From Candidatus Poseidoniaceae archaeon (GTDB taxonomy: Archaea > Thermoplasmatota > Poseidoniia > Poseidoniales > Poseidoniaceae): a DNA stretch of 64,000 bases. Shown here in pieces: positions 18,992 through 31,017 of this stretch. The translations under genes were made by a program, and so were the position numbers. Each line of letters starts with the position of its first letter. The first letter of the stretch is position 1. The stretch covers positions 1 through 64,000 of the forward strand of contig CALJHE010000001.1 of the NCBI GenBank assembly GCA_938075675.1, written 5' to 3'. The notes beneath the pieces are model-generated. The model was not told the DNA's origin. It ran no database searches and saw only the letters and a list, made by a program, of their open reading frames with translations.

Positions 18992-19609
18992 TCACTTGTT
19001 CTTGAAACGCTTGAGACGGAAGGTTTCTTCACGTTCCATCTCTTCAAGTCGAAGTTGAATGAACACTCGTGCCTCTTCCAATTCTGGAATAACTTTGTAC
19101 TCCAAAGCGTTTACACGGCGCTTGGTTGCTTCGATTTCCTGCAGCAAACGCTTGAGTGTTGCTTCCATCTCGGATGCTTTGACAATCTTCTCAATGAGGT
19201 TTCCAAAGGACTCACCTGCTTCATCGATGTATGGAGACGAACCAATGAATCCGACTCCACGTTCCTTGAACGTTGATTTGAGGTTGGTTCCGCTTACGCT
19301 CGGGACGACGACACCCATGATGTTGCGTCGCTCGACTTCAACTTCGGGATGACCGGTGTTCGCAATGGCTGCAGCGCGGACTGCCAATCCACCTTCGATA
19401 GCGTTCGCAAGGTCGATGCGTTGTTTTGCCATACGGTAAGTAGCAGTTAAGTCACGCTTTGCCTCAATCATGTCCGAGAGCAATGAACGGAACTCGTGAA
19501 ATAATCCGTCTCTCTTCATCTTCAGCAATTTGTAACCGTTCTTGGTTTGCTTAATTCTCCCTTTGAGTTTAATCAACTCACTTCGGGTTGGTTTGATGTC
19601 GAGTGCCAT
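18992..19609 (-). CDS. atpD: A-type ATP synthase subunit D
   Basis: Subunit D is the central rotor stalk that turns inside the A3B3 head. The 205-residue protein has the family start IKPTRSELIKLKGRIKQTKNGYKLLKMKRD and two long coiled-coil helices at its ends with a short globular middle (VVPSVSGTNLKS). Its ribosome site is perfect: AAGGAGGTGA at 19616-19625, six bases from the ATG. It is the last gene of the H-I-K-E-C-F-A-B-D operon. Confidence 0.95.
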   Translation of the reverse strand: MALDIKPTRSELIKLKGRIKQTKNGYKLLKMKRDGLFHEFRSLLSDMIEAKRDLTATYRMAKQRIDLANAIEGGLAVRAAAIANTGHPEVEVERRNIMGVVVPSVSGTNLKSTFKERGVGFIGSSPYIDEAGESFGNLIEKIVKASEMEATLKRLLQEIEATKRRVNALEYKVIPELEEARVFIQLRLEEMEREETFRLKRFKNK

Positions 19610-19615
19610 GTTCTT

Positions 19616-19625
19616 TCACCTCCTT
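19616..19625 (-). promoter_or_regulatory. Ten-base perfect Shine-Dalgarno of atpD
   Basis: The minus strand reads AAGGAGGTGA, complementary over ten bases to the usual archaeal 16S rRNA tail, six bases before the atpD ATG. It shows that internal genes of this operon use SD-driven initiation, and it suggests high subunit D output. Confidence 0.8.
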
Positions 19626-19644
19626 TTTTGTCGAAATATTGACT

Positions 19645-21024
19645 TCAAGCCTTGTTCTCTGGGTGGTACTTGTCAATCCATTTCTGGTCGAGACGGACAA
19701 GGTACTTTGTGTCAATAGCAGACATGAGATTCCAGCACAAGTCGAGTGTTTCTTCGATTGAGCGGTCTTCGTCACGGGTTTGGCGAAGGAACTTGTCTTC
19801 GAAAACTCCAGAGAAGTCAAGCAGTTGCTTGTCACGCTCATTCAATGCATCTTCACCAACAATGGCGACAAGCCCACGTAGTTCACGGCCTTGTGCATAT
19901 GCTGCATACATTTGGTCAGAAACCGATTTGTGGTCTTCACGAGTTGTCTTCTCACCAATACATGAACCCATCAATCGAGAGAGAGATGGAAGAACGTTGA
20001 TCGGCGGATAGATTCCTTGTTGGTGCAATTCACGTGAAATAACAATTTGTCCTTCAGTAATGTATCCTGACAAGTCAGGAATTGGGTGCGTGATATCGTC
20101 ACCTGGCATGGTCAGAATTGGGAATTGAGTGATTGAACCTTTCTTGTTCTTGATAATTCCAGCACGTTCGTAGAGCATAGCCAAATCTGTGTACATGTAA
20201 CCTGGGTAACCACGTCGTCCAGGAACTTCTTCACGAGCAGCACCAATTTGACGAAGAGCGTCACAGTAGTTGGTCATGTCCGTATAGATAACCAGAACGT
20301 GGTAATCTTTCTCGAAAGCAAGGTATTCTGCAGCAGTTAAAGCAAGACGAGGCGTAATGATACGCTCGACAGCTGGGTCGTCAGCAAGGTTGACGAACAG
20401 AACCGCATTTTCTAGAGCACCTGTTCGCTCCAAATCAGAACGGAAGAAATTGTATTCTTCAGCGGTGATACCCATTGCACAGAACACAACGACGAATTCT
20501 TCATCTGAATCCTTGAGTTTCGCCTGTCGGGCAATTTGCAGTGCAATGTCATTGTGAGGTAGACCAGATGCCGAGAAAATCGGCAACTTTTGTCCACGAA
20601 CGAGACTCGTACAAAGGTCAATTGCAGAAACACCGGTTTGAATGAAATCGTTCGGGCTCTGTCGACTGTATGGATTGATAGCAGCACCGATGATGTCTGC
20701 CTTCTCTTCAGCGACAATCTCCGGTCCACCGTCACGAGGGCGTCCAGCACCATCGAGAATTCGACCAACGAGGTCGGTACTCACTGGGAGTTTGAAGACA
20801 TCACCCATGAAAGTGACACCAGATTCTCGATCAATCTTCGAAGTTCCTTCGAAAACTTGGACGATAACGAGGTCATCCGAAGTATCGAGAACTTGTCCGT
20901 TCTTGATGGTCCCGTTGGAAAGTCGTAGAGTTACGATTTCTCCAAAAGCAACAGGTTCAGTTTTATTCAAAAAGACCAGAGGTCCTTTCACGTCAGTAAT
21001 GGTTCGGTATTCTTTTCCAGTCAT
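19645..21024 (-). CDS. atpB: A-type ATP synthase subunit B
   Basis: Subunit B is the non-catalytic nucleotide-binding subunit of the A3B3 hexamer. It begins [19 protein letters not shown], has [19 protein letters not shown] where catalytic subunits have a P-loop, and [22 protein letters not shown] and [29 protein letters not shown] further on, all typical. The ORF track starts at 21069 inside the atpA end; the ATG at 21024 is the normal family start and gives 459 residues. It follows atpA by 13 bases. Confidence 0.96.
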
Positions 21025-21037
21025 GATATTCCTCTCC

Positions 21038-22777
21038 TCAGTTTTCCTCCACCGTATCGGCAATTTCATCGGTCATTTTCTTGACCATTCCATCAATAAC
21101 GTCGATGTATCCCTTTTCGAAGCGACCACGCATGAGGTCGGAACGAGCAGGAACGTTGACAACATCGTTGAGAAGAGCGCCGCCTGCCATAGCAGACTTT
21201 GCAGCATCTTGGAACGATAGAATAGCTTTGGCCATTTGGTATTGTAGGTGAATGTCACAGTAAGCGTCGACATCGTGGAATCCATTTTGTTGCAAGAAGA
21301 ATTCTCGAATCATTCGAGCGACTTCAAGCGTGAGTTGTTGGTCCACAGGTAGAGCATCGGAACCAACAAGTTGGACAATTTCTTGCAACTCAGACTCAAT
21401 CTGAAGCAAACCACTGATTTGAGTTCGGATTTCAGGGAAATCTTGAGCGATGTTATCTCGGAACCATTGATCCAAACTTTGTGGATACAATGAATACGAG
21501 TTCAACCAGTTGATTGCAGGGAAGTGGCGTTGACGAGCAAGACCAGCATCTAATCCCCAGAAAACCTTGACAATTCGAAGTGTTCCTTGAGAAACTGGCT
21601 CGGAAATGTCTCCACCAGGTGGCGAAACTGCGCCGATAACGGTAACAGAGCCGTCATCACCGTTTAGTGTCTCAACACGGCCAGCACGTTCGTAGAACTC
21701 AGCAATACGAGATGAAAGGTAAGCAGGATATCCTTCTTCACCGGGCATTTCTTCAAGACGAGATGAGATTTCACGCATTGCTTCTGCCCAGCGAGAAGTT
21801 GAGTCAGCCATCAAAGCGACGTCATAGCCCATGTCTCGGAAGTATTCTGCGATGGTAATTCCGGTGTACACGGATGCTTCACGAGCAGCCACTGGCATGT
21901 TTGAAGTGTTTGCAATCATGACGGTTCGTTCCATCAATGGTTTTCCGGTGTTCGGGTCAATCAAGTGAGGGAATTCATCCAGCACTTCAGTCATTTCATT
22001 TCCACGCTCACCGCATCCGATGTAAACAACGAGTTGAGCATCGGAATACTTTGCGAGTGATTGTTGAGTAACGGTCTTTCCGGAACCGAACGGCCCAGGA
22101 ATCCCAGCTGCTCCACCCTTAGCAAGTGGGAATAAGAAATCGAGGATTCTCATACCGGTGATAAGAGGGGTTTCAGGTGCATACTTCTGTTGGAAAGGTC
22201 GTGGGGTTCGAACAGGCCACTTTTGCATCATCTGCATTTCAGTTCCGTTTTCGAGCACACAAACGGTTTGAGTGACATTGAAATCGCCGGATTCAATCGA
22301 TTTTACAACACCACTGGCGGTAGGAGGAACCATGATTTTGTGAACGATTGTTTCGGTTTCTTGAACGTGACCGATAACTTGTCCGCCGACGACAGAGTCA
22401 CCGACTGCGACTTGAGGCTCAAAGGTCCAAATTTTCTCAAGGTCAAAAGCATCTGCGTCAACACCACGGGTGATGAACACGCCCATTTCCTCTTCCAGAG
22501 TAGGAAGGGGTCGTTGGATACCGTCGTAAATCTGAGTCAAGAGACCTGGCCCCAAGGAAACAGAAAGAGTCTCTTGTGTATTCAACACTGGTTCACCAGG
22601 ACGAATACCAGAGGTATCTTCGTAGACTTGGATAACAGACTTGTCACCGTGCAGTTCAATCACTTCGCCCATCAGACCTTCTTCGCCTACGCGAACAACG
22701 TCGTACATTGCGGCTTTCATACCAGTTGCAGTTACAACCGGCCCGGATATTCGGTAAATTACTCCTTCATTGCTCAT
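21038..22777 (-). CDS. atpA: A-type ATP synthase subunit A (catalytic)
   Basis: The catalytic subunit of the A1 head, 579 residues. The P-loop is [19 protein letters not shown], followed by [19 protein letters not shown] and the [28 protein letters not shown] region near the catalytic site. The non-homologous region insert typical of A subunits (residues about 110-190) is present. The ORF track's extra five residues overlap a clear GGAGGAAAT site at 22782-22790, so the ATG at 22777 is the start. Flanked by atpF upstream and atpB downstream. Confidence 0.97.
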
Positions 22778-22805
22778 TTTTATTTCCTCCATTTGGTTTG
22801 GAATC

Positions 22806-23105
22806 TTACTTCCACAGGTCGACTCCTATAGCCTTGCGAATTGTGTCTCGCAAGGTGGTGTCTTCTTCCGTACCGATACCAAGAACGGTAGGAGAGACGG
22901 ATGCCGAGAGTTGGTCACGAAGACGCTCTGGCAGCGTTGATAGGATTGTGGAGTCGACCACAACAATCCCAACGCTCTTTGAATTGAGTAGAGATTTGAA
23001 GACGGAAATCATTTCCTCTTCGCCTTCTGGGTTAAACAGGGAATCAATGCCTGCAAGTTGGAATCCAAGGGTGAATTCTGGTGTCCCTACGATTGCAATA
23101 TCCAT
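22806..23105 (-). CDS. atpF: A-type ATP synthase subunit F
   Basis: A 99-residue subunit F, a small Rossmann-like protein of the central stalk that modulates the head. The start [19 protein letters not shown] and the [10 protein letters not shown] strand match the family. A GAGGTGA site stands before the ATG at 23105, so the track's GTG start at 23114 is rejected. It sits between atpC and atpA, its usual place. Confidence 0.92.
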
Positions 23106-23115
23106 TCTTTTCACC

Positions 23116-24159
23116 TCACAATATGTGTGCTTCGATTACTTCATTCGAAAGACCTGCTAAACGGCCACGTACGATAAAGCGCAAGTCATTCACTTCTTGG
23201 ACCTTCATGGCCACATAGTGGATCACTGGTAATGCTGAGACTGGGTGGAGATAGCTCATGCGCTTCATGATGTTGTGTTCGCGTTCTTTGAACCAAGTAA
23301 CAACTGGGTCCAAACTGTTCACCTCTTTCGATTGGGAAAGAGCTGCTTCAAATGCTGGGAAATCAAAACGGTTGGAGCCTCGTAGCAGAGCCATAGCAGC
23401 CTCTTGGCCGCCAGCCGCAATCGAGGAGAATGCACGCCGTGGAATAAGTCGTCCGCCAGGAATAAGCATCGATACAACATCCTCAAAGGAGATACCGACA
23501 TGTTCGGCTTCTAGTATATTCACGAGATTTCGGTGATCGATTTCCGCACCAATAAGTTCCTTGAGGAATCGACTGACTGGACTGTTCCCACCAATTGAGT
23601 TCAAAGCGTGTTTGAAATAATGGCGGTCAAGCGCATCCTCGTAATCGCTCAAGCGACCGTCTTCTGAAACGGCGTTCAAATCAGAGCCAAACGATTTACG
23701 GCGCATCTGAACAACTGCGGAACGCAAATCATCTGAGTTCTCGATAATCTTCAACCAAGGAGTGTTAATGTCGTTCAACTCAGGAAGAATTGAATGAGCC
23801 ACTTTTTCGAGTTCCACTTGATTAACGACTGAACGAAGTACGACCTTTGCGTTGTAGTACTCAAATCTCGAGGTGTACGTCTCAACTATGCCTCGGATTT
23901 TACCGCTGCAGAGAGAAAGCATCTTTTCGAGTTCATGCTCTAAGTTGTGGGTTAATGCTGCTTCAACCAAATCTCCGCCGGACATTTGACCTGCATAGAG
24001 GTCTATTTCCGAGCGGTAACCGATCTCTCCGACTGCAACAGTCAGTTGTTCGGGCGATTGGCTGATGAGTTGGCGTAGCCTGGCACGGTCCGCAAGTTTC
24101 TGCCGGCGTGACTTTGCACGAGCAGCAACATAAGGTGTGTTTCCAAGCATTACCATCAT
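23116..24159 (-). CDS. atpC: A-type ATP synthase subunit C
   Basis: Subunit C (AC39-like) is the socket connecting the central stalk to the membrane ring. The 347-residue helical protein begins NTPYVAARAKSRRQKLADRARLRQLI and has the family's repeated bundles, including YEDALDRHYFKHALNSI and a C-terminal ALPVIHYVAMKVQEVNDLRFIVRGR, the motif shared by AC39 proteins. GAGGG lies just before two adjacent in-frame ATGs; the first (24159) is used. It is 6 bases after atpE and 10 before atpF. Confidence 0.94.
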   Translation of the reverse strand: MMVMLGNTPYVAARAKSRRQKLADRARLRQLISQSPEQLTVAVGEIGYRSEIDLYAGQMSGGDLVEAALTHNLEHELEKMLSLCSGKIRGIVETYTSRFEYYNAKVVLRSVVNQVELEKVAHSILPELNDINTPWLKIIENSDDLRSAVVQMRRKSFGSDLNAVSEDGRLSDYEDALDRHYFKHALNSIGGNSPVSRFLKELIGAEIDHRNLVNILEAEHVGISFEDVVSMLIPGGRLIPRRAFSSIAAGGQEAAMALLRGSNRFDFPAFEAALSQSKEVNSLDPVVTWFKEREHNIMKRMSYLHPVSALPVIHYVAMKVQEVNDLRFIVRGRLAGLSNEVIEAHIL

Positions 24160-24165
24160 TATCCC

Positions 24166-24729
24166 TCAGTCAAAAAGTATTGAATTAATTTCAGCGAGTT
24201 GATCGTTCCAAGAAGATTCGAGGAGTGTATCAAAGCGCATGTCGTACGATACCGAACCATCGGGTGATTCGAGAACAAAGCCTCCAAGTCCTTCAATTGC
24301 GTCACCAACCTTTCGCTTCCCAGCAAGTTCTGAGAGAGCTTTACGGTCGATTTCAACTGGACGGACCGAATAGTCATCGCCACCAATCTTGTCAGCCTTT
24401 GCCATCAGAGACTTGAGCAGACTTGCTCGTCCTGAGAGTTTTGGGCTTCCAAGAGTGTCACTGGCCGATTGTAAGGTCTCATCGAGTACCTTGCGTCGAG
24501 CAATGAGTATTTCTTTCTGGTTCGCTTGGCGAGCGCTAGCTACGACTTCACGGGCAATTTGAGTTGCTTCACGTTCAGTACGGCTGGATGCTTCCGAGCG
24601 GATGGCGTCAGATTTTGAGTTTGCTTCAGCAAGTATTGCCTTTGCTTCCTCATTAGCTGCTTTTACCATAGCCGAGGCTTCAGCCTCAGCAGATTTTGCG
24701 ATGTCCTTTGCGAGTGTTTCAAGCGTCAT
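24166..24729 (-). CDS. atpE: A-type ATP synthase subunit E
   Basis: Subunit E forms, with subunit H, the peripheral stalks of the enzyme. The first 100 residues are a single Ala/Glu/Lys-rich coiled coil (EAEASAMVKAANEEAKAILAEA), and the rest is the globular head that binds subunit B, ending in VSYDMRFDTLLE and ILFD. Length 187 is normal. AAGGAGA precedes the ATG. A 62-base spacer separates it from atpK. Confidence 0.93.
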   Translation of the reverse strand: MTLETLAKDIAKSAEAEASAMVKAANEEAKAILAEANSKSDAIRSEASSRTEREATQIAREVVASARQANQKEILIARRKVLDETLQSASDTLGSPKLSGRASLLKSLMAKADKIGGDDYSVRPVEIDRKALSELAGKRKVGDAIEGLGGFVLESPDGSVSYDMRFDTLLESSWNDQLAEINSILFD

Positions 24730-24791
24730 AGTGATTTCTCCTTGTTAATTTCAATTGGCCAGCGAACCGGCCCTTCCATCATTGATGCCCC

Positions 24792-25103
24792 TCATCCTTG
24801 TAGGAAAAGTGGCAGTGCACCGAGAATGACGATAGATTCAGGCAAAGCAGTGAAAATCAATGCTTGGCTGAACTTGCTTCCGTCTTCTGCGAGCATACCG
24901 ACAGCTGCGCTGCCGATTGCGGATTGTGACCATCCAGCACCGATTGCGGCGAGCCCGAGGGCGATACCGTGTCCGATTGCTGTGTAACCGTCACCATCAC
25001 TGGCTGCTGTTGCTTCTTGTGCTGCTGCTCCTTGAGCAACCAAAGTGATGGCTGCGAGTAGGATCAATGTTCTTAGGCTCGTTTTTAGGGTGTTTGCGTT
25101 CAT
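24792..25103 (-). CDS. atpK: A-type ATP synthase subunit K (proteolipid ring)
   Basis: The 103-residue proteolipid forms the rotating membrane ring. An N-terminal segment (residues 1-29, ending AQGAAAQEA) looks like a cleavable signal, then a two-helix hairpin follows: YTAIGHGIALGLAAIGAGWSQSAIGS, a polar loop AEDGSKFSQ, and ALIFTALPESIVILGALPLFL with the ion-binding Glu in PES. A Gln in the first helix (WSQS) together with Glu-Ser in the second resembles the ligand set of sodium-coupled rings, though helix alignment by eye is uncertain. GGAGGTAG lies 7 bases before the ATG. Confidence 0.94.
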   Translation of the reverse strand: MNANTLKTSLRTLILLAAITLVAQGAAAQEATAASDGDGYTAIGHGIALGLAAIGAGWSQSAIGSAAVGMLAEDGSKFSQALIFTALPESIVILGALPLFLQG

Positions 25104-25137
25104 ATTTGCTACCTCCGATTTATTTAGTGTCCGTGGA

Positions 25138-27486
25138 CTATGATTGACCCTCTACATGGAGGGAACGGCCACCGAGCGGTGCGAATGCACGGCCGGATCC
25201 GTCGTAGAATTTGCCCATCCATTCCACAAAGTGGAGACGGGCTGCGTGAATTGTAGGGGAAAGGATTCCCAATGCGATGGCGAACAATTGAACGAAGAGG
25301 AAAAGGATGAGGCAGAAGATTCCAACAAGGACGCCAGAAAGTCCACCGCTCGAGAAAGCGTTAACCATCGGCTCGAATCCCATGGTAATGGATACTTCTG
25401 CAATCTTGACACCTGCCACACCGACGCCCATAATCCGCAGATATGAGAGCGTGTTCGCAAGCAGCCCGAAAGTTTCGATTGGACCCATGATAATGCCGCC
25501 TGCCCATCCGAATTTTTCATAAACAGCCAATCCAATGATGAGACTAACAAGACCAATGAAAAGCAATGCGGTCCAGATTTGGAACTCGAACAAAGCGTTG
25601 TATCCTGAAACCATATTGCGGCCTTGCATGAAGCCTCCAATGAGAATGAGAAGCCAAGAGCCTTTCTCAAAGTATGCAGCAGCAGCGCCATGTGCCTTGA
25701 AGACGTTGATGAGACCGAGAACGTAGCCAACAAAGATGTGAGCCGCCCCCAGGTAGATGGAAAGTATAACGTATTCTTGCAATCCATGGCCGGCTGAAGC
25801 ACGGTGGAAAGGCATGTGAAGGCCTCCAAGATTGAGCACGTCAGCGATTGCGCCTGGAACATGGACGTTATGGTACGTCCAATCATAGAAGGCATAGAAC
25901 GGTGAATCGTTACCCATTTGGCCTGTTTCATCCCAAACGAATCCGAAGCCTTCTGCGAAAATAACGCCCCAGACGATACACGAAACGCCCATCCAGCGAA
26001 GAATAGTCAAGCCTTTTTGAGCCAGAGGGTCTGCTGCGAATGCCTTCGAACCGAGCCAGTAAGAGAGCGCAAGCAGAACAAGTCCGTATCCCCAATCACC
26101 CAAAATCATACCGTAAACGAGCGGGAATGTCATCATGATGAGCATGGAGGGGTCGAATGTGCCGTACTTAGGGCGTCCAACCAAGTCCACCATCAATTCA
26201 AACGGTTCAGTAATTGAGCCGTTTGAGAACTGGATAGGCGGTTCAACATCGTGGCTTCCGTCGTCGTGAGAAGGCGTATTACGAATACGTGTGAGCGTGA
26301 TGTCAAGTTCAGGTAGGTTGATTTTCCCATCGCCATCGAGGTCGACTGCAGATACAAGTTTACCCATTTCCCAAGGCGGGAGGTTCGCGATGTTTGCGTT
26401 CTTCAAAGCTGATTGAAACTCATAACAATCGATGAGTCCGGATTCATCCAAATCGATAGCGTTGAAAAACTGGAATACGGTCTGGTCGGACTTGGTAAGG
26501 TAGTTTGAAAGCATCAAAAGTTCTTCAGGGTCAGAAGGACCGTGATTTTCATGCTCATCATGGTGGTGGTGCCCTCCTTCGAACGCTTCTATTGTAACGT
26601 GAGAAGCAACCTTCGCCAATTCTGCTTCAACCATAGAGGCTTGTGATGTAGGAACCCAGCCATCAAGGGCAAAAGCTTGGTTGCTGACTGCGACCAATGT
26701 TGGAGCAGTATACACAGCAGCCTCACGAGTGAGGTATTCTTTGGCGGCTACCAAATTACGGCCGTTTCGAATCGCCCAAGCATCAAGTGCTGATTGAGCG
26801 TCGGTTATTTTCGATTCAAGTTGCATTATTTCTTCGAGAAGTTTTTTTGACTTCTCACCGGGTGAACCTTCGCCTGCTGGGATTTGAACAGGTTTTGAAC
26901 CGATTTCAGCAAGACAGATTTGAACTTCTGCGGAATGTTTTGAGCGGCATGCAACTGCGACCAGCCCACCTTCAGCATGAAGTTCAATCTTGTCACGAAT
27001 GTCTGCGAACGCTTCCTTTGCCTTTGAAGCGCGTCGAACTTCGCCCACGAAGACTTCAAGATCACCGTATCCAGCCATCAATTCGAGAGGGATATCCAAC
27101 GGTGCAAGACGTTGCAAGAGTTGTTGTTGCTCCTTCGAAGATGAAATCTTAACTTCAGAGTCTCGAATGGTGTCGATGTAACCAAGGGCAGCAGTAATCT
27201 TCTCTTCAAATCCGGCTACCATCTTAGATGCCTCTTTGCGAGACATTGGGCCGTCGGAATTGACGGCTTGAACGGCTGAGGAGACCGCTTGAACTTTGAC
27301 CAAGAGATTACTTATTGCGTTTGCTTCGTCAGAATCCATTGAGGAACCAACGCCAATACCGTCTTCAAAACGACCGTATTCTTCAATGTGTACGCATGAA
27401 AGGTCGGTGCAGAGCCGTAGAATTTCTTCTATCTTCTCTACAGGAGCCGCTACTGTAAGACGAGACATGTCGGTAGTAGCAAACAT
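25138..27486 (-). CDS. atpI: A-type ATP synthase subunit I with an inserted EF-hand pair
   Basis: Subunit I (subunit a) is the membrane stator holding the ion half-channels and the peripheral stalks. The N-terminal cytoplasmic domain starts MSRLTVAAPVEKIEEILRLC, and the C-terminal domain has seven or eight hydrophobic segments from about residue 445 (MILGDWGYGLVLL onward, then LGAAHIFVGYVLGLIN and TLSYLRIMGVGVAG). Between them, after a His-rich stretch (residues about 304-318), lie two EF-hand loops: DLDESGLIDCYEF near 344 and DLDGDGKINLPEL near 381, both with the acidic ligands and the 12th-position Glu. Spacing of 37 residues is typical of a paired EF-hand. The total of 782 residues exceeds the usual 620-680. 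I know of no precedent in this family. Confidence 0.95.
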   Translation of the reverse strand: MFATTDMSRLTVAAPVEKIEEILRLCTDLSCVHIEEYGRFEDGIGVGSSMDSDEANAISNLLVKVQAVSSAVQAVNSDGPMSRKEASKMVAGFEEKITAALGYIDTIRDSEVKISSSKEQQQLLQRLAPLDIPLELMAGYGDLEVFVGEVRRASKAKEAFADIRDKIELHAEGGLVAVACRSKHSAEVQICLAEIGSKPVQIPAGEGSPGEKSKKLLEEIMQLESKITDAQSALDAWAIRNGRNLVAAKEYLTREAAVYTAPTLVAVSNQAFALDGWVPTSQASMVEAELAKVASHVTIEAFEGGHHHHDEHENHGPSDPEELLMLSNYLTKSDQTVFQFFNAIDLDESGLIDCYEFQSALKNANIANLPPWEMGKLVSAVDLDGDGKINLPELDITLTRIRNTPSHDDGSHDVEPPIQFSNGSITEPFELMVDLVGRPKYGTFDPSMLIMMTFPLVYGMILGDWGYGLVLLALSYWLGSKAFAADPLAQKGLTILRWMGVSCIVWGVIFAEGFGFVWDETGQMGNDSPFYAFYDWTYHNVHVPGAIADVLNLGGLHMPFHRASAGHGLQEYVILSIYLGAAHIFVGYVLGLINVFKAHGAAAAYFEKGSWLLILIGGFMQGRNMVSGYNALFEFQIWTALLFIGLVSLIIGLAVYEKFGWAGGIIMGPIETFGLLANTLSYLRIMGVGVAGVKIAEVSITMGFEPMVNAFSSGGLSGVLVGIFCLILFLFVQLFAIALGILSPTIHAARLHFVEWMGKFYDGSGRAFAPLGGRSLHVEGQS

Positions 27487-27496
27487 TGGGAACGCC

Positions 27497-27808
27497 TCAC
27501 TGTGATGTTACGGAGTCAAGAAGACTCTTGAGTGCCTTTTCTTTTCGGCTGGATGCAGATGATTCAATGCTTTCGACAACGGATGCGCCTTCTTTGAGAA
27601 CTGCATCTGCTTCTTTCCCGGCTTTTGAACGGGCAGCCTCAAGCGTAGCCTGAGTTTCGCTCACAGACTCTTCAGTAGCATTTGAAACGAGTGCTGCAGC
27701 CTCACGTCGAGCGTCGGCCGTAATTTTGCTGGACTCAGTTTGAGCCGAGGAAAGTCGCTTTTCAGCGGACTGCTCAGCCTCTTTGATTTTTCGGAGGACA
27801 TCTTTCAT
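27497..27808 (-). CDS. atpH: A-type ATP synthase subunit H
   Basis: A 103-residue coiled-coil protein, MKDVLRKIKEAEQSAEKRLSSA, that pairs with subunit E in the peripheral stalks. Low complexity in Ala, Glu, Lys and Ser is normal for this family. The track starts at a GTG at 27823; I use the ATG at 27808, which gives the family start. It is the first gene of the ATP synthase operon, 10 bases before atpI and 90 bases after the methyltransferase gene. Confidence 0.88.
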   Translation of the reverse strand: MKDVLRKIKEAEQSAEKRLSSAQTESSKITADARREAAALVSNATEESVSETQATLEAARSKAGKEADAVLKEGASVVESIESSASSRKEKALKSLLDSVTSQ

Positions 27809-27898
27809 ACCCAAGTAAATCACCAGTGTTCCGCCGTATGTACTGAGGTTTATGAGGCTAATGGGCGATAAGAACGGAGAATCGACCGCAGGAAGTCG

Positions 27899-28648
27899 TC
27901 ATTCAGCCTTAGGTTTGGTCGCCCGAAATCGGCTTGACATCATGAAAGGCATCAAGAGACGACCCTGTACATCGTCAAAACCCACTTCTTTCATCATTGC
28001 GCGATAGTATCCATTTGTGCCGTATTGAGTATACGTGTTGGCAAGACCTTTCCAGGGGTGATTCTTTTCTCGTGTAACATATCGAGCAATCCACTGAACG
28101 ACTGTCGCCATCCAAATTCGGCCGCCAAGACCGTGGAACCAATTGGCTTTCCCAGCATCGCATATTACCAGTCTACCGCCGGGTTTTAGAACGCGATAAA
28201 TCTCACTCAATCCCTTTTTTTTGTCCTGAAAATCACGGAAAGAAAACAGGCAGAACACCATATCGAATGTGTTGTCATCCAATGGGATTGATTCTGCGAT
28301 AGCTTCGACGTATTGAGCGGGAGATTCGCCGCGCGACTCCCGAGCAGAATCGACGCGGTTTTTCGCTACCTTGAGCATCTCTGCTGAAGGGTCAAGACAT
28401 GTCACATCGAGTCCGACAAGGTCTTCGGCAAAAGAGCCAGGTCCGCATCCAACTTCGAGAACTTTCATGCCCGGAGTAGCGTGGTTGCGCACATTACGCC
28501 TCCATCTTTTGTCCTGACCAAAAGTCATCAAACGGTTTACTCTATCGTAATTTGGAATGGTTTCTTCAAGTTGTAACTCGAGTTTCTCCCATGCATCGAT
28601 ATCGATGCCAGAAGGGTCGTAACCACCTGTAGCCGATCGGTCGCCCAT
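27899..28648 (-). CDS. UbiE/MenG-like SAM-dependent methyltransferase
   Basis: A 249-residue class I methyltransferase. Motif I is VLEVGCGPGSFAEDL, followed by VTCLDPSAEMLKVAKNR, then IPLDDNTFDMVFCLFSFRDFQDKKKGLSEIYRVLKPGGRLVICD, which closely follows the UbiE/MenG pattern. Such enzymes methylate the menaquinone or ubiquinone ring; a quinone role would fit the aerobic chain in this window, but the substrate is not shown by sequence. GAGG lies 9 bases before the ATG. It precedes the ATP synthase operon on the same strand by 90 bases and may share its transcript. Confidence 0.8.
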   Translation of the reverse strand: MGDRSATGGYDPSGIDIDAWEKLELQLEETIPNYDRVNRLMTFGQDKRWRRNVRNHATPGMKVLEVGCGPGSFAEDLVGLDVTCLDPSAEMLKVAKNRVDSARESRGESPAQYVEAIAESIPLDDNTFDMVFCLFSFRDFQDKKKGLSEIYRVLKPGGRLVICDAGKANWFHGLGGRIWMATVVQWIARYVTREKNHPWKGLANTYTQYGTNGYYRAMMKEVGFDDVQGRLLMPFMMSSRFRATKPKAE

Positions 28649-28733
28649 GGCTGTTCCTCACGCCCGACCTCTTTGGATATGTCGCCCAAAACAAACCGCC
28701 ATAATGAACGGGAAAGGGGTCGGAAAACCGCCC

Positions 28734-29537
28734 TCAAGCGATACGTTCGACGGTTTCCGGAGTAATTCCTTCTTCTGGAGTTACACGGAAAACGAGAATC
28801 TTGAGATTCTCTGGAGCGTTTCGGAATTTTGAGACGATCATCGAGGTTTCAAAGTCAGTACCAATGGTTCGAACTTGGAACGAGAGAACCATGTCTGCAA
28901 TCGAAGCAAGTTCTTGTTTGACCGTAGGATCAAGACCATTGGTAGAGACCGATACAAGAAGGAGGCCTCGGTTCAACTGAACATGCGCTTGAAGCATACG
29001 CACCATTGCGATGACACGTGAAGGGTCTTCACGCTGCAAGAAGAAATCGAGACTGTCAATAACCGCTCTAAAATAAGGACCAAGGGCCATAACCTCATTG
29101 GTGACTTCGGTCAAGTAATCTTGAGTATTGTCATCGACGAAACGTGTTTGGGCAAGACGGCGAATGTCGTCAAGTCGGAAACCTTCGAGACGATATCGGC
29201 TTGCAAGCAACTCTCTTTCGAGGACGGTTGTATTGTATTCTTCGCCAATCGTACGGACACTGATGTCAAGCGGCCAGTCGTACTTCTGGAAAATACGAAT
29301 GATTTCTTGTTGACCTTCGTTGGTTGAAATGTAAAGTGTGTTTTCCGCTTCTTCGGCCGGAGACGTGAATTGCTTCGCAAACAATTCACTGCCAGACCCG
29401 GTATCCGTGAAAGCAACCATCATGAATCCACGGGGAACTCCACCGTGCATTTCGTTGTCGAACTTTGGGACTCCAAAGGAGCCTACTTTACCGAAGAACT
29501 CTTCATCCTCTGGGTCAAATTCAATTTTTCTTGCCAT
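28734..29537 (-). CDS. KaiC/RadA-like protein with degenerate P-loop (third of trio)
   Basis: A 267-residue RecA-fold protein. It aligns with KaiC-type ATPases: KFDNEMHGGVPRGFMMVAF, TDTGSGSELFAKQF at the Walker A position, TLYISTNEGQQEIIRIFQKY, and AVIDSLDFFLQ at the Walker B position. The Walker A Lys is missing (SGSELF instead of SGKT), so ATP hydrolysis is unlikely. It is the last of three linked KaiC-like genes, 10 bases after the second. An acidic N-terminus (EFDPEDEEF) is added. Partner proteins are unknown; KaiC-like proteins act in clocks, archaellum assembly (FlaH) and signalling. Confidence 0.8.
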   Translation of the reverse strand: MARKIEFDPEDEEFFGKVGSFGVPKFDNEMHGGVPRGFMMVAFTDTGSGSELFAKQFTSPAEEAENTLYISTNEGQQEIIRIFQKYDWPLDISVRTIGEEYNTTVLERELLASRYRLEGFRLDDIRRLAQTRFVDDNTQDYLTEVTNEVMALGPYFRAVIDSLDFFLQREDPSRVIAMVRMLQAHVQLNRGLLLVSVSTNGLDPTVKQELASIADMVLSFQVRTIGTDFETSMIVSKFRNAPENLKILVFRVTPEEGITPETVERIA

Positions 29538-29547
29538 AACAATAACC

Positions 29548-30159
29548 TCAGTTGATGAGTACTTGACCTCTGTCGATTAAATCTGTACAATACAAGTCAA
29601 GATTTGCGAGAACAAGTGGAGGCGTTTGGTCTGGAACGTTGAGAATCACAGACAAAACTTCTCTCTGCCGGAAGGTGTTGATGAAGGTGTGAAGGTATTC
29701 AGCAAGCATTCGATCATCGTTGTAGATTGCAAGGGCATTAACGCTGTCCAAGAATACAAAGTTACGAGCTGCGGTGGTCATTCTTAGAATATACAGTGTT
29801 CTCAAGAGAACGGACTCGAGCATAATTGGGCTGTCGACAAAATGGATGTTGGTGTAGGCAACGTCAGTGCCTCCAAGGATGCCAGAGGACACCAAATCAA
29901 CGAACTGGATCCGAGAAATGTCTTCGTCAGTGAGTCCAATTGCCTTGAATTCTTCAATACGTTCTGCTGCACCGACGCTGGCACAAATGTATACGCCACC
30001 CATTTCAAACATCTGCATTAGCGGGATGAGAGTGCTTGCAGTGACGTTGAATGCGTTTGAATTACCACAGCGAACCTGAATCGAACTGTTGAGGCTAACA
30101 TCCTGAGCAAGTTGCTCAGCAATACGGTCATCGAGTACGAGATTCGTGTACATTATCAT
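29548..30159 (-). CDS. KaiC-like protein without Walker A (second of trio)
   Basis: A 203-residue protein that resembles the RecA-like core of its neighbours but lacks a P-loop; the region where it would lie reads NAFNVTASTLIPLMQMFEMGG. The later part is recognisable: IQFVDLVSSGILG, FVFLDSVNALAIYNDDRMLAEYLHTFINTFRQR and a terminal DLIDRGQVLIN parallel the Walker B strand and following helix of the third gene. Its start overlaps the stop of the first KaiC-like gene by 4 bases. It probably forms a structural partner in a hetero-oligomer; this is inference. Confidence 0.7.
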   Translation of the reverse strand: MIMYTNLVLDDRIAEQLAQDVSLNSSIQVRCGNSNAFNVTASTLIPLMQMFEMGGVYICASVGAAERIEEFKAIGLTDEDISRIQFVDLVSSGILGGTDVAYTNIHFVDSPIMLESVLLRTLYILRMTTAARNFVFLDSVNALAIYNDDRMLAEYLHTFINTFRQREVLSVILNVPDQTPPLVLANLDLYCTDLIDRGQVLIN

Positions 30160-30944
30160 CCACCTACCTTGTTGGTTTTATCGTGTTGAGCGCCCCATTT
30201 GAGCATTGGAGTAAGCATTACTCCGAGAGGAGTCAGTTCGATAGCGTGTTTCGCTCGACTGTGGGAAGTGCCTCGCATCTTTACCACCTGCAGGAAACGA
30301 AGAAGGTGGCCCATGCGTTCAACATCGCCCATGACGATAATCCCGTCGGCAATTGCCTCCTCCACACCGAAGGAAGACCAATGAGCGTTTTCTGTGGCAG
30401 AAGTAATCTCTGAAATCAGGATGGTCGTGCAACCAAGTGAGGCAAGTTTCTTACCGAGAGTGAAAAGGAAGTCACGAATCAATTGCTCGGATTTAATCTT
30501 GTAACAAAGTGTAGTCACCGAATCAATCACAAGCCGTGTAGCACCGATTTCGTGAACGATGTTGATAATCGCTTTAATCAATGCGTGAACATCGTCAAGG
30601 TCGAAAGACGCCTTGTCAAGACCGAGCCAAGAATACAACACGTCCATGTCAAAAACATTGATTTTGCCAGAGTCAACCATTTTCATATCGAAAAAAGCGT
30701 ATTGCCGGATGTTTTCGAGGAGTTTAATCGAAGGTTCAGTTGCAGTAAAGTGCGCACATGATTCCGGGAGCTTTGCAAGAGCACCACGGACAAGGAACTC
30801 CATGGCAAGTGTGGTCTTTCCTGAGCCACAAGTACCTGCAGCAAGAACGGTCGAGCCGTGAGGTATACCGCCCCGAAGGATTTCGTCCAAGCCGTGAATA
30901 CCCGTAATACAGCGGTCACGGGTGTAATTAGAGGTTGACTGCAT
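30156..30944 (-). CDS. KaiC/RadA-like ATPase with intact P-loop (first of trio)
   Basis: A 262-residue ATPase of the KaiC/RAD55 type. GIHGLDEILRGGIPHGSTVLAAGTCGSGKTT holds an intact Walker A, and TRLVIDSVTTLCYK the Walker B strand; LGCTTILISEIT follows as in KaiC proteins. It has a single RecA domain, so it is closer to archaeal KaiC-like or FlaH proteins than to clock KaiC. The ORF track starts 4 codons upstream at GTG 30956; I take the ATG at 30944. It is the only member of the three-gene set likely to hydrolyse ATP. Confidence 0.85.
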   Translation of the reverse strand: MQSTSNYTRDRCITGIHGLDEILRGGIPHGSTVLAAGTCGSGKTTLAMEFLVRGALAKLPESCAHFTATEPSIKLLENIRQYAFFDMKMVDSGKINVFDMDVLYSWLGLDKASFDLDDVHALIKAIINIVHEIGATRLVIDSVTTLCYKIKSEQLIRDFLFTLGKKLASLGCTTILISEITSATENAHWSSFGVEEAIADGIIVMGDVERMGHLLRFLQVVKMRGTSHSRAKHAIELTPLGVMLTPMLKWGAQHDKTNKVGG

Positions 30945-31017
30945 GGGATTCAACACACACCAGTGGCTTTGGGTTCATGAAGCATCCGCTGATTAGCGTT
31001 CAAACGGGCATCGGATA

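Follow-up and report, generated by a model that had tools for sequence, protein, structure and literature searches.

An EF-hand module in ATP synthase subunit I and in complex I subunits of Poseidoniales archaea

The A-type ATP synthase subunit I encoded in the 64,000-nucleotide stretch of DNA analysed here (the window) contains a genuine EF-hand pair, inserted in the flexible His/Asp-rich linker that joins the cytosolic domain of this stator subunit to its first membrane helices. On at least three occasions, loops or tails of ion-translocating complexes have acquired the same Poseidoniales-specific module, the hosts being subunit I and the complex I subunits NuoL and NuoJ2. With two complex I subunits among the hosts of the module, the finding goes beyond what was first stated in a preliminary description of the window, which had dealt with subunit I. 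In eukaryotic mitochondria, control of energy conversion by calcium is textbook knowledge; in archaea, calcium signalling has been little explored, and archaea of the Poseidoniales type are abundant in the surface ocean. The positions of the features under discussion are given in Table 1.

Table 1. Positions of the features discussed; coordinates refer to the window unless a locus number precedes them
Feature	Position	Strand	Basis or remarks
A-type ATP synthase subunit I (stator a/I subunit) with EF-hand insert	25138..27486	-	782 aa, ATG start
EF-hand module, residues 320-402	26281..26529	-	Pfam EF-hand families, conservation, dN/dS, domain model
EF loop 1 DLDESGLIDCYE, residues 345-356	26419..26454	-	positions 1, 3, 5, 6, 12 invariant in 45/45; position 9 D/E
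EF loop 2 DLDGDGKINLPE, residues 382-393	26308..26343	-	positions 1, 5, 6, 9, 12 invariant in 45/45; position 3 D/N
His/Asp/Glu-rich linker preceding the module, residues 306-315	26542..26571	-	alignment
Asp/His linker following the module, residues 403-415	26242..26280	-	alignment
ATP synthase operon, in transcription order G/H-like stalk subunit, I, K (c ring), E, C, F, A, B, D	18992..27823	-	Pfam
c-ring subunit K	24792-25103	-	apparent N-terminal signal-like segment and LPESxxI motif
nuoJ2 with C-terminal EF module	L101:2952-3533	-	split NuoJ
nuoJ2 with C-terminal EF module	L168:1171-2220	+	split NuoJ
~656-aa polytopic membrane protein, EF module at C-terminus	L109:7206-9185 and homologues	+	genera g1-g11
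Zinc-ribbon/EF/TM protein, 627 aa, contig C14 of G000	L003:712-2595	+	zinc-ribbon-like cysteine pairs, two EF-hand pairs, acidic stretches, TM segments

The assignment of the open reading frame to subunit I is based on matches to the Pfam family V_ATPase_I (5.5e-27, above the cut-off) and to the NCBIfam model for V-type ATP synthase subunit I (1.6e-111, below the strict equivalog cut-off of that model), and on its position in the operon, in which the G/H-like stalk subunit is recognized by a Pfam match below its cut-off. A full-length AlphaFold2 model computed from 49 sequences is of modest confidence (pLDDT 71, pTM 0.46; 63-76 for pLDDT within the module region). In Foldseek searches it matches subunit I of the T. 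thermophilus V/A-ATPase (6qum_N, E 4.8e-21, TM 0.67 on target length) as well as subunit a of yeast and mammals. The conserved membrane arginine of the ion path, R684 in the SYLR motif, occupies an invariant column of the 49-sequence subunit I alignment, and the reading frame is the sole full-length subunit I match in the MGII (Poseidoniaceae) genome to which the window belongs (G000, 90% complete). The LPESxxI motif of the c subunit has been tied to possible Na+ coupling by Tully 2019 (PMC6336850). Directly upstream of the operon, on the same strand (27899-30956), lie a gene for a UbiE-type methyltransferase and a cluster with a KaiC-like ATPase.

Both loops of the insert comprise 12 residues, with ligands at positions 1, 3, 5, 9 and 12 and a hydrophobic residue at position 8, and the module is matched above the respective cut-offs by Pfam EF-hand_1 (1.6e-7) and by the EF-hand_7 pair (2.9e-7). 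A PROSITE-type EF pattern arose in 0.2% of shuffles of subunit I, and a pair of such patterns 30-45 residues apart in 0 of 20,000. The two canonical loops, 37 residues apart, and the His-rich stretch before the module (residues 306-315), both noted in the preliminary description, are upheld. Its statement that the protein is about 100 residues longer than usual is also correct, as module-free relatives measure 673-692 aa against the 782 aa of the window protein. When the module was modelled in isolation from 27 sequences (pLDDT 85, pTM 0.75), it was predicted to form helix-loop-helix pairs with strands at 36-38 and 73-75 between flanking helices; the model is a paired EF-hand, the absence of which the preliminary description would have counted as a refutation. 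The solved structures nearest to it are EF-hand proteins (ACF7 EF1-EF2, calmodulin, centrin, parvalbumin), with probabilities of up to 1.00 and a best E-value of only 0.017, so that the structure search with the isolated module returned no neighbour with an E-value as low as 0.001. The topology of subunit I/a is known, and from it the insert would follow to face the cytosol.

The insert is found at the same site in 46 of 80 related subunit I loci; nearly all of the non-carriers have a bare His/Asp linker at that point (for example HHHHDDHDDHHHEP), and a few loci are fragments. Among the 45 carriers that could be aligned, with identities to the window protein down to ~60%, Glu occupies position 12 of both loops without exception, the remaining ligand positions alternate between D and E or between D and N, and positions 7, 10 and 11 of loop 1 are variable, a pattern that would be expected for a putative Ca2+ site with Glu at position 12. 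The ligand positions are better conserved than the remainder of the module, which also retains the non-ligand motifs LPP(W) and INLPELD. The ligand conservation on which the preliminary description had made its case depend is thus borne out: no member of the carrying clade is without the insert, the ligands of which are either invariant or subject to D/E and D/N exchanges. With a median dN/dS of 0.053, the module is more tightly constrained than the surrounding N-terminal cytosolic domain (0.094); the membrane half has 0.054 and the linkers ~0.2, and because dS is high these values are to be taken as relative. The EF pair of subunit I is under purifying selection.

These data bear on two further explanations. 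An insertion fixed through recombination at His/Asp codon repeats and kept by chance would agree with the low-complexity His/Asp repeats at the insertion sites in subunit I and NuoL, but is highly improbable in view of invariant ligands and a dN/dS of 0.053 across deep divergence, and of the repeated acquisition of the module on ion-pumping complexes. The probability of an assembly or binning artefact is smaller still and practically negligible: even though most of the sequences are metagenome-assembled, the same site is occupied in 46 independent contigs, including a single-contig MG-II chromosome of 2.06 Mb (L023, CM001443) and a contig titled isolate AG-333-I22 (L009), with an intact reading frame and selection at the codon level. 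Because of this conservation, both explanations are rejected. As separate observations on the public records, two contigs labelled as Flavobacteriales and Rhodobiaceae bins (L027, L082) encode Poseidoniales subunit I, apparently through mis-binning, and two further subunit I genes (L047, L048) have a longer matched span, the reading frame of L048 being broken after 687 residues.

In a subunit I tree from which the insert columns had been left out, a single branch (SH-aLRT 94) separates the carriers from the other sequences. Five genomes of the window's own genus (g1) encode a module-free subunit I of 692-694 aa and fit the module-free sister lineage of the tree (L049-L056), and no module was found on subunit I in the tested genomes of genera g5, g6 and g9. 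A single gain of the insert in subunit I is the simplest reading. Absence of the insert from close relatives, which the preliminary description had counted against a functional site, is indeed seen in these sister lineages, but it reads as one gain rather than as noise. Since the His/Asp/Glu-rich linker is also present in module-free relatives, it is older than the insert, and since sister lineages have a module-free subunit I, the module is dispensable for rotation itself.

Searches with a profile of the module (A3) gave matches in 160 of 171 genomes of the family (E <= 1e-20), and among 390 genomes sampled from the phylum (E <= 1e-14) the module was restricted to Poseidoniales. Its hosts are subunit I in g1, NuoL in g9, NuoJ2 in g6 and in g14 (the latter belonging to a second family of the order), a ~656-aa membrane protein in g1-g11, and a few others, among them a 628-aa protein of g10. 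Among the closely examined genomes, which are few per genus and in many cases incomplete, a given lineage had the module on ATP synthase, NuoL or NuoJ2 or lacked it on all three, and none was seen with two of these hosts. A g3 genome (G026) contains an extra NuoJ2-type module (L181), which may be a binning error.

The NuoL proteins of g9 (L088, L122, L142-L155) have the module within a His/Asp-rich loop (...HEVHHAHHHLHHHDHDDGHH[module]GHHDEFDAQSM.NMGGL...), and both EF loops are canonical in all 15 of 15 modules. A similar His/Asp-rich loop devoid of the module is present in NuoL of the window's genome and of the tested g3, g5, g6, g7 and g11 genomes, with a corresponding difference in length (~750-775 aa in most module-free proteins versus 847-872 aa with the module). 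In a phmmer alignment to 6hum_F, the helix that precedes the insertion loop of g9 NuoL has the conserved LFHL.NHA..KGMLFMASGAVIH motif; given the established 16-helix topology of NuoL, this loop should face the cytosol. The second complex I host arises from a split of NuoJ into nuoJ1 and nuoJ2, the module being attached to the C-terminus of nuoJ2 within the gene orders nuoH-nuoI-nuoJ1-nuoJ2+EF-nuoK-nuoL in g6 and nuoI-nuoJ1-nuoJ2+EF-nuoK in g14. This ~190-aa host is the C-terminal half of NADH dehydrogenase chain 6 (NuoJ), as evident from its position in the nuo operon and from a match to positions 82-146 of the 146 of the Oxidored_q3 profile (1.2e-5, 25.5 bits), which lies below the whole-domain cut-off, the gene being split. 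NuoJ2 of g1, g5, g7 and g9 stops ~86 residues in, without the module. The module tail of NuoJ2 comes after ...YLVRDERMENLLW and is predicted to be cytosolic by the positive-inside rule for membrane protein topology. On such general grounds, subunit I, NuoL and NuoJ2 would all display the module in the cytosol beside ion-translocating machinery. The nuoJ2+EF product of g14 sometimes has an extra helix-hairpin-helix tail, of a kind found on NuoI too.

The family-wide host, the ~656-aa polytopic membrane protein, did not turn up in the incomplete genome to which the window belongs; in some genera it has SAP or helix-hairpin-helix-like tails after the module. Its identification as heme-copper oxidase subunit I, considered on the basis of inspection by eye and one Pfam match, is unsupported by profile-profile and solved-structure searches: the COX1 profile is matched by one of 16 members, a divergent one, barely over the cut-off (4.4e-9), profile-profile comparison of the host family with genuine COX1 proteins from this family of genomes gives a probability of 1.2%, and no invariant His was found in the host family. 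In a tree of the module (87 columns), the modules of subunit I, NuoL, NuoJ2 and most of the membrane proteins group apart from those of zinc-ribbon EF proteins (98/85), with no resolution of donor and recipient; the zinc-ribbon/EF/TM protein of the window's genome is such a more distant EF relative. As the module is also present on proteins not known as bioenergetic, it is not a dedicated energy regulator.

The EF-hand pair of subunit I very probably binds Ca2+, and we are inclined, by a modest preference, to see the role of the module as regulatory rather than purely structural. An unlikely alternative is constitutive binding of Ca2+ (or Mg2+) that would stabilise a loose linker or, jointly with the His/Asp stretches, buffer metal, and would involve no regulation. 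The ancestral His/Asp-rich linkers, which are plausible metal ligands, would suit it, as would the precedent of mEAK-7, whose EF-like domain was found to be structural and not calcium sensing (PMC9263379), but module-free hosts have the same linker and work, the ligand positions are more conserved than the other positions of the module, and the ligands are intact, unlike those of mEAK-7.

For a cytosolic, Ca2+-dependent switch or docking module that was recruited to ion-pumping complexes, we consider the chances to be even. Docking proper, in which the EF pair would not gate its host but bring it together with a common partner or a different complex (a respiratory assembly or a membrane localisation), comparable to dockerin or penta-EF dimerisation, is rather improbable. 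A module common to ATP synthase, complex I, a family-wide polytopic membrane protein and other membrane proteins is compatible with it, as are the conserved motifs outside the ligands, whereas the hosts differ between genera and a fixed assembly would be expected to hold one host. One may propose, with somewhat less than even confidence, that cytosolic Ca2+ directly controls oxidative phosphorylation of Poseidoniales in cis, the module tuning whichever complex carries it. Proteins of the Na_Ca_ex (Na+/Ca2+ exchanger) family are encoded in all six of six genomes tested, with two loci in most. In a scenario that is speculative both as to the sensing of the gradient and as to the sign of the effect, cytosolic Ca2+ would rise if the ion gradient (Na+ or H+) behind Na+/Ca2+ exchange falters in seawater, and the conformation of the module would then change; this could alter contacts at the stator-membrane junction or lead to binding of a partner, and the coupling or activity of the pump or synthase would be adjusted.

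Core subunits of archaeal ATP synthase and complex I bear an intact predicted calcium-sensor domain that is under strong selection and was gained separately in different genera, and the sequences suggest that calcium may have a part in controlling how these ocean archaea make energy. If the proposed control in cis holds true, the stator of a prokaryotic rotary ATP synthase would be Ca2+-gated, and one sensor would have been plugged repeatedly and convergently into different energy complexes. Whether Ca2+ is a switch of the A-type ATP synthase has become a direct, testable question, for which the sister lineages with and without the module, having the same linker, provide a natural experiment.

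In the open-licence literature, no report was found of an EF-hand in subunit I, the A-type ATP synthase or complex I core subunits. Protein families with calcium-binding domains that are specific to Poseidoniaceae and Thalassarchaeaceae have emerged from a large comparison (PMC9258230), the main-text passage on which leaves the hosts unnamed and draws no tie to ATP synthase or complex I. With subunit I/a of A/V-type ATPases (T. thermophilus, yeast Vph1) the window protein has in common the domain order, the fold, the membrane half with the SYLR arginine and the operon context, and it differs by the ~85-residue EF-hand insert between the two halves, none being reported for the matched solved homologues. 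The module resembles the EF pairs of calmodulin, centrin and parvalbumin in its 12-residue loops, ligand pattern, 37-residue spacing and inter-loop strands, whereas here a single pair resides within a membrane enzyme and has the lineage-specific LPP(W) and INLPELD motifs. Calcium-dependent activity in a respiratory chain is known from the external type II NAD(P)H dehydrogenases of plant mitochondria, of which NDB1 belongs to the EF-hand family (PMC4587368); NDB1, however, is a non-pumping, single-polypeptide eukaryotic enzyme, in contrast to the core subunits of archaeal ATP synthase and complex I described here from their sequences. The preliminary description knew of no calcium gating in any rotary enzyme, and this novelty has to be qualified by two EF-like precedents. 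ICAP2, a b subunit of the apicomplexan F-type ATP synthase, has an EF-like domain on the stator, predicted at 74.5% probability (PMC6133553); it shares with subunit I an EF-type domain on a rotary stator, albeit in a eukaryotic F-type enzyme and at another site, and the two are presumably of independent origin. The other, mEAK-7, is a TLDc protein bound to the mammalian V-ATPase, the degenerate EF-like domain of which is devoid of calcium ligands, does not bind calcium and showed no Ca2+ response (PMC9263379). Whereas mEAK-7 is a separate protein from which the ligands are missing, the module of subunit I is present in cis and its ligands are invariant.
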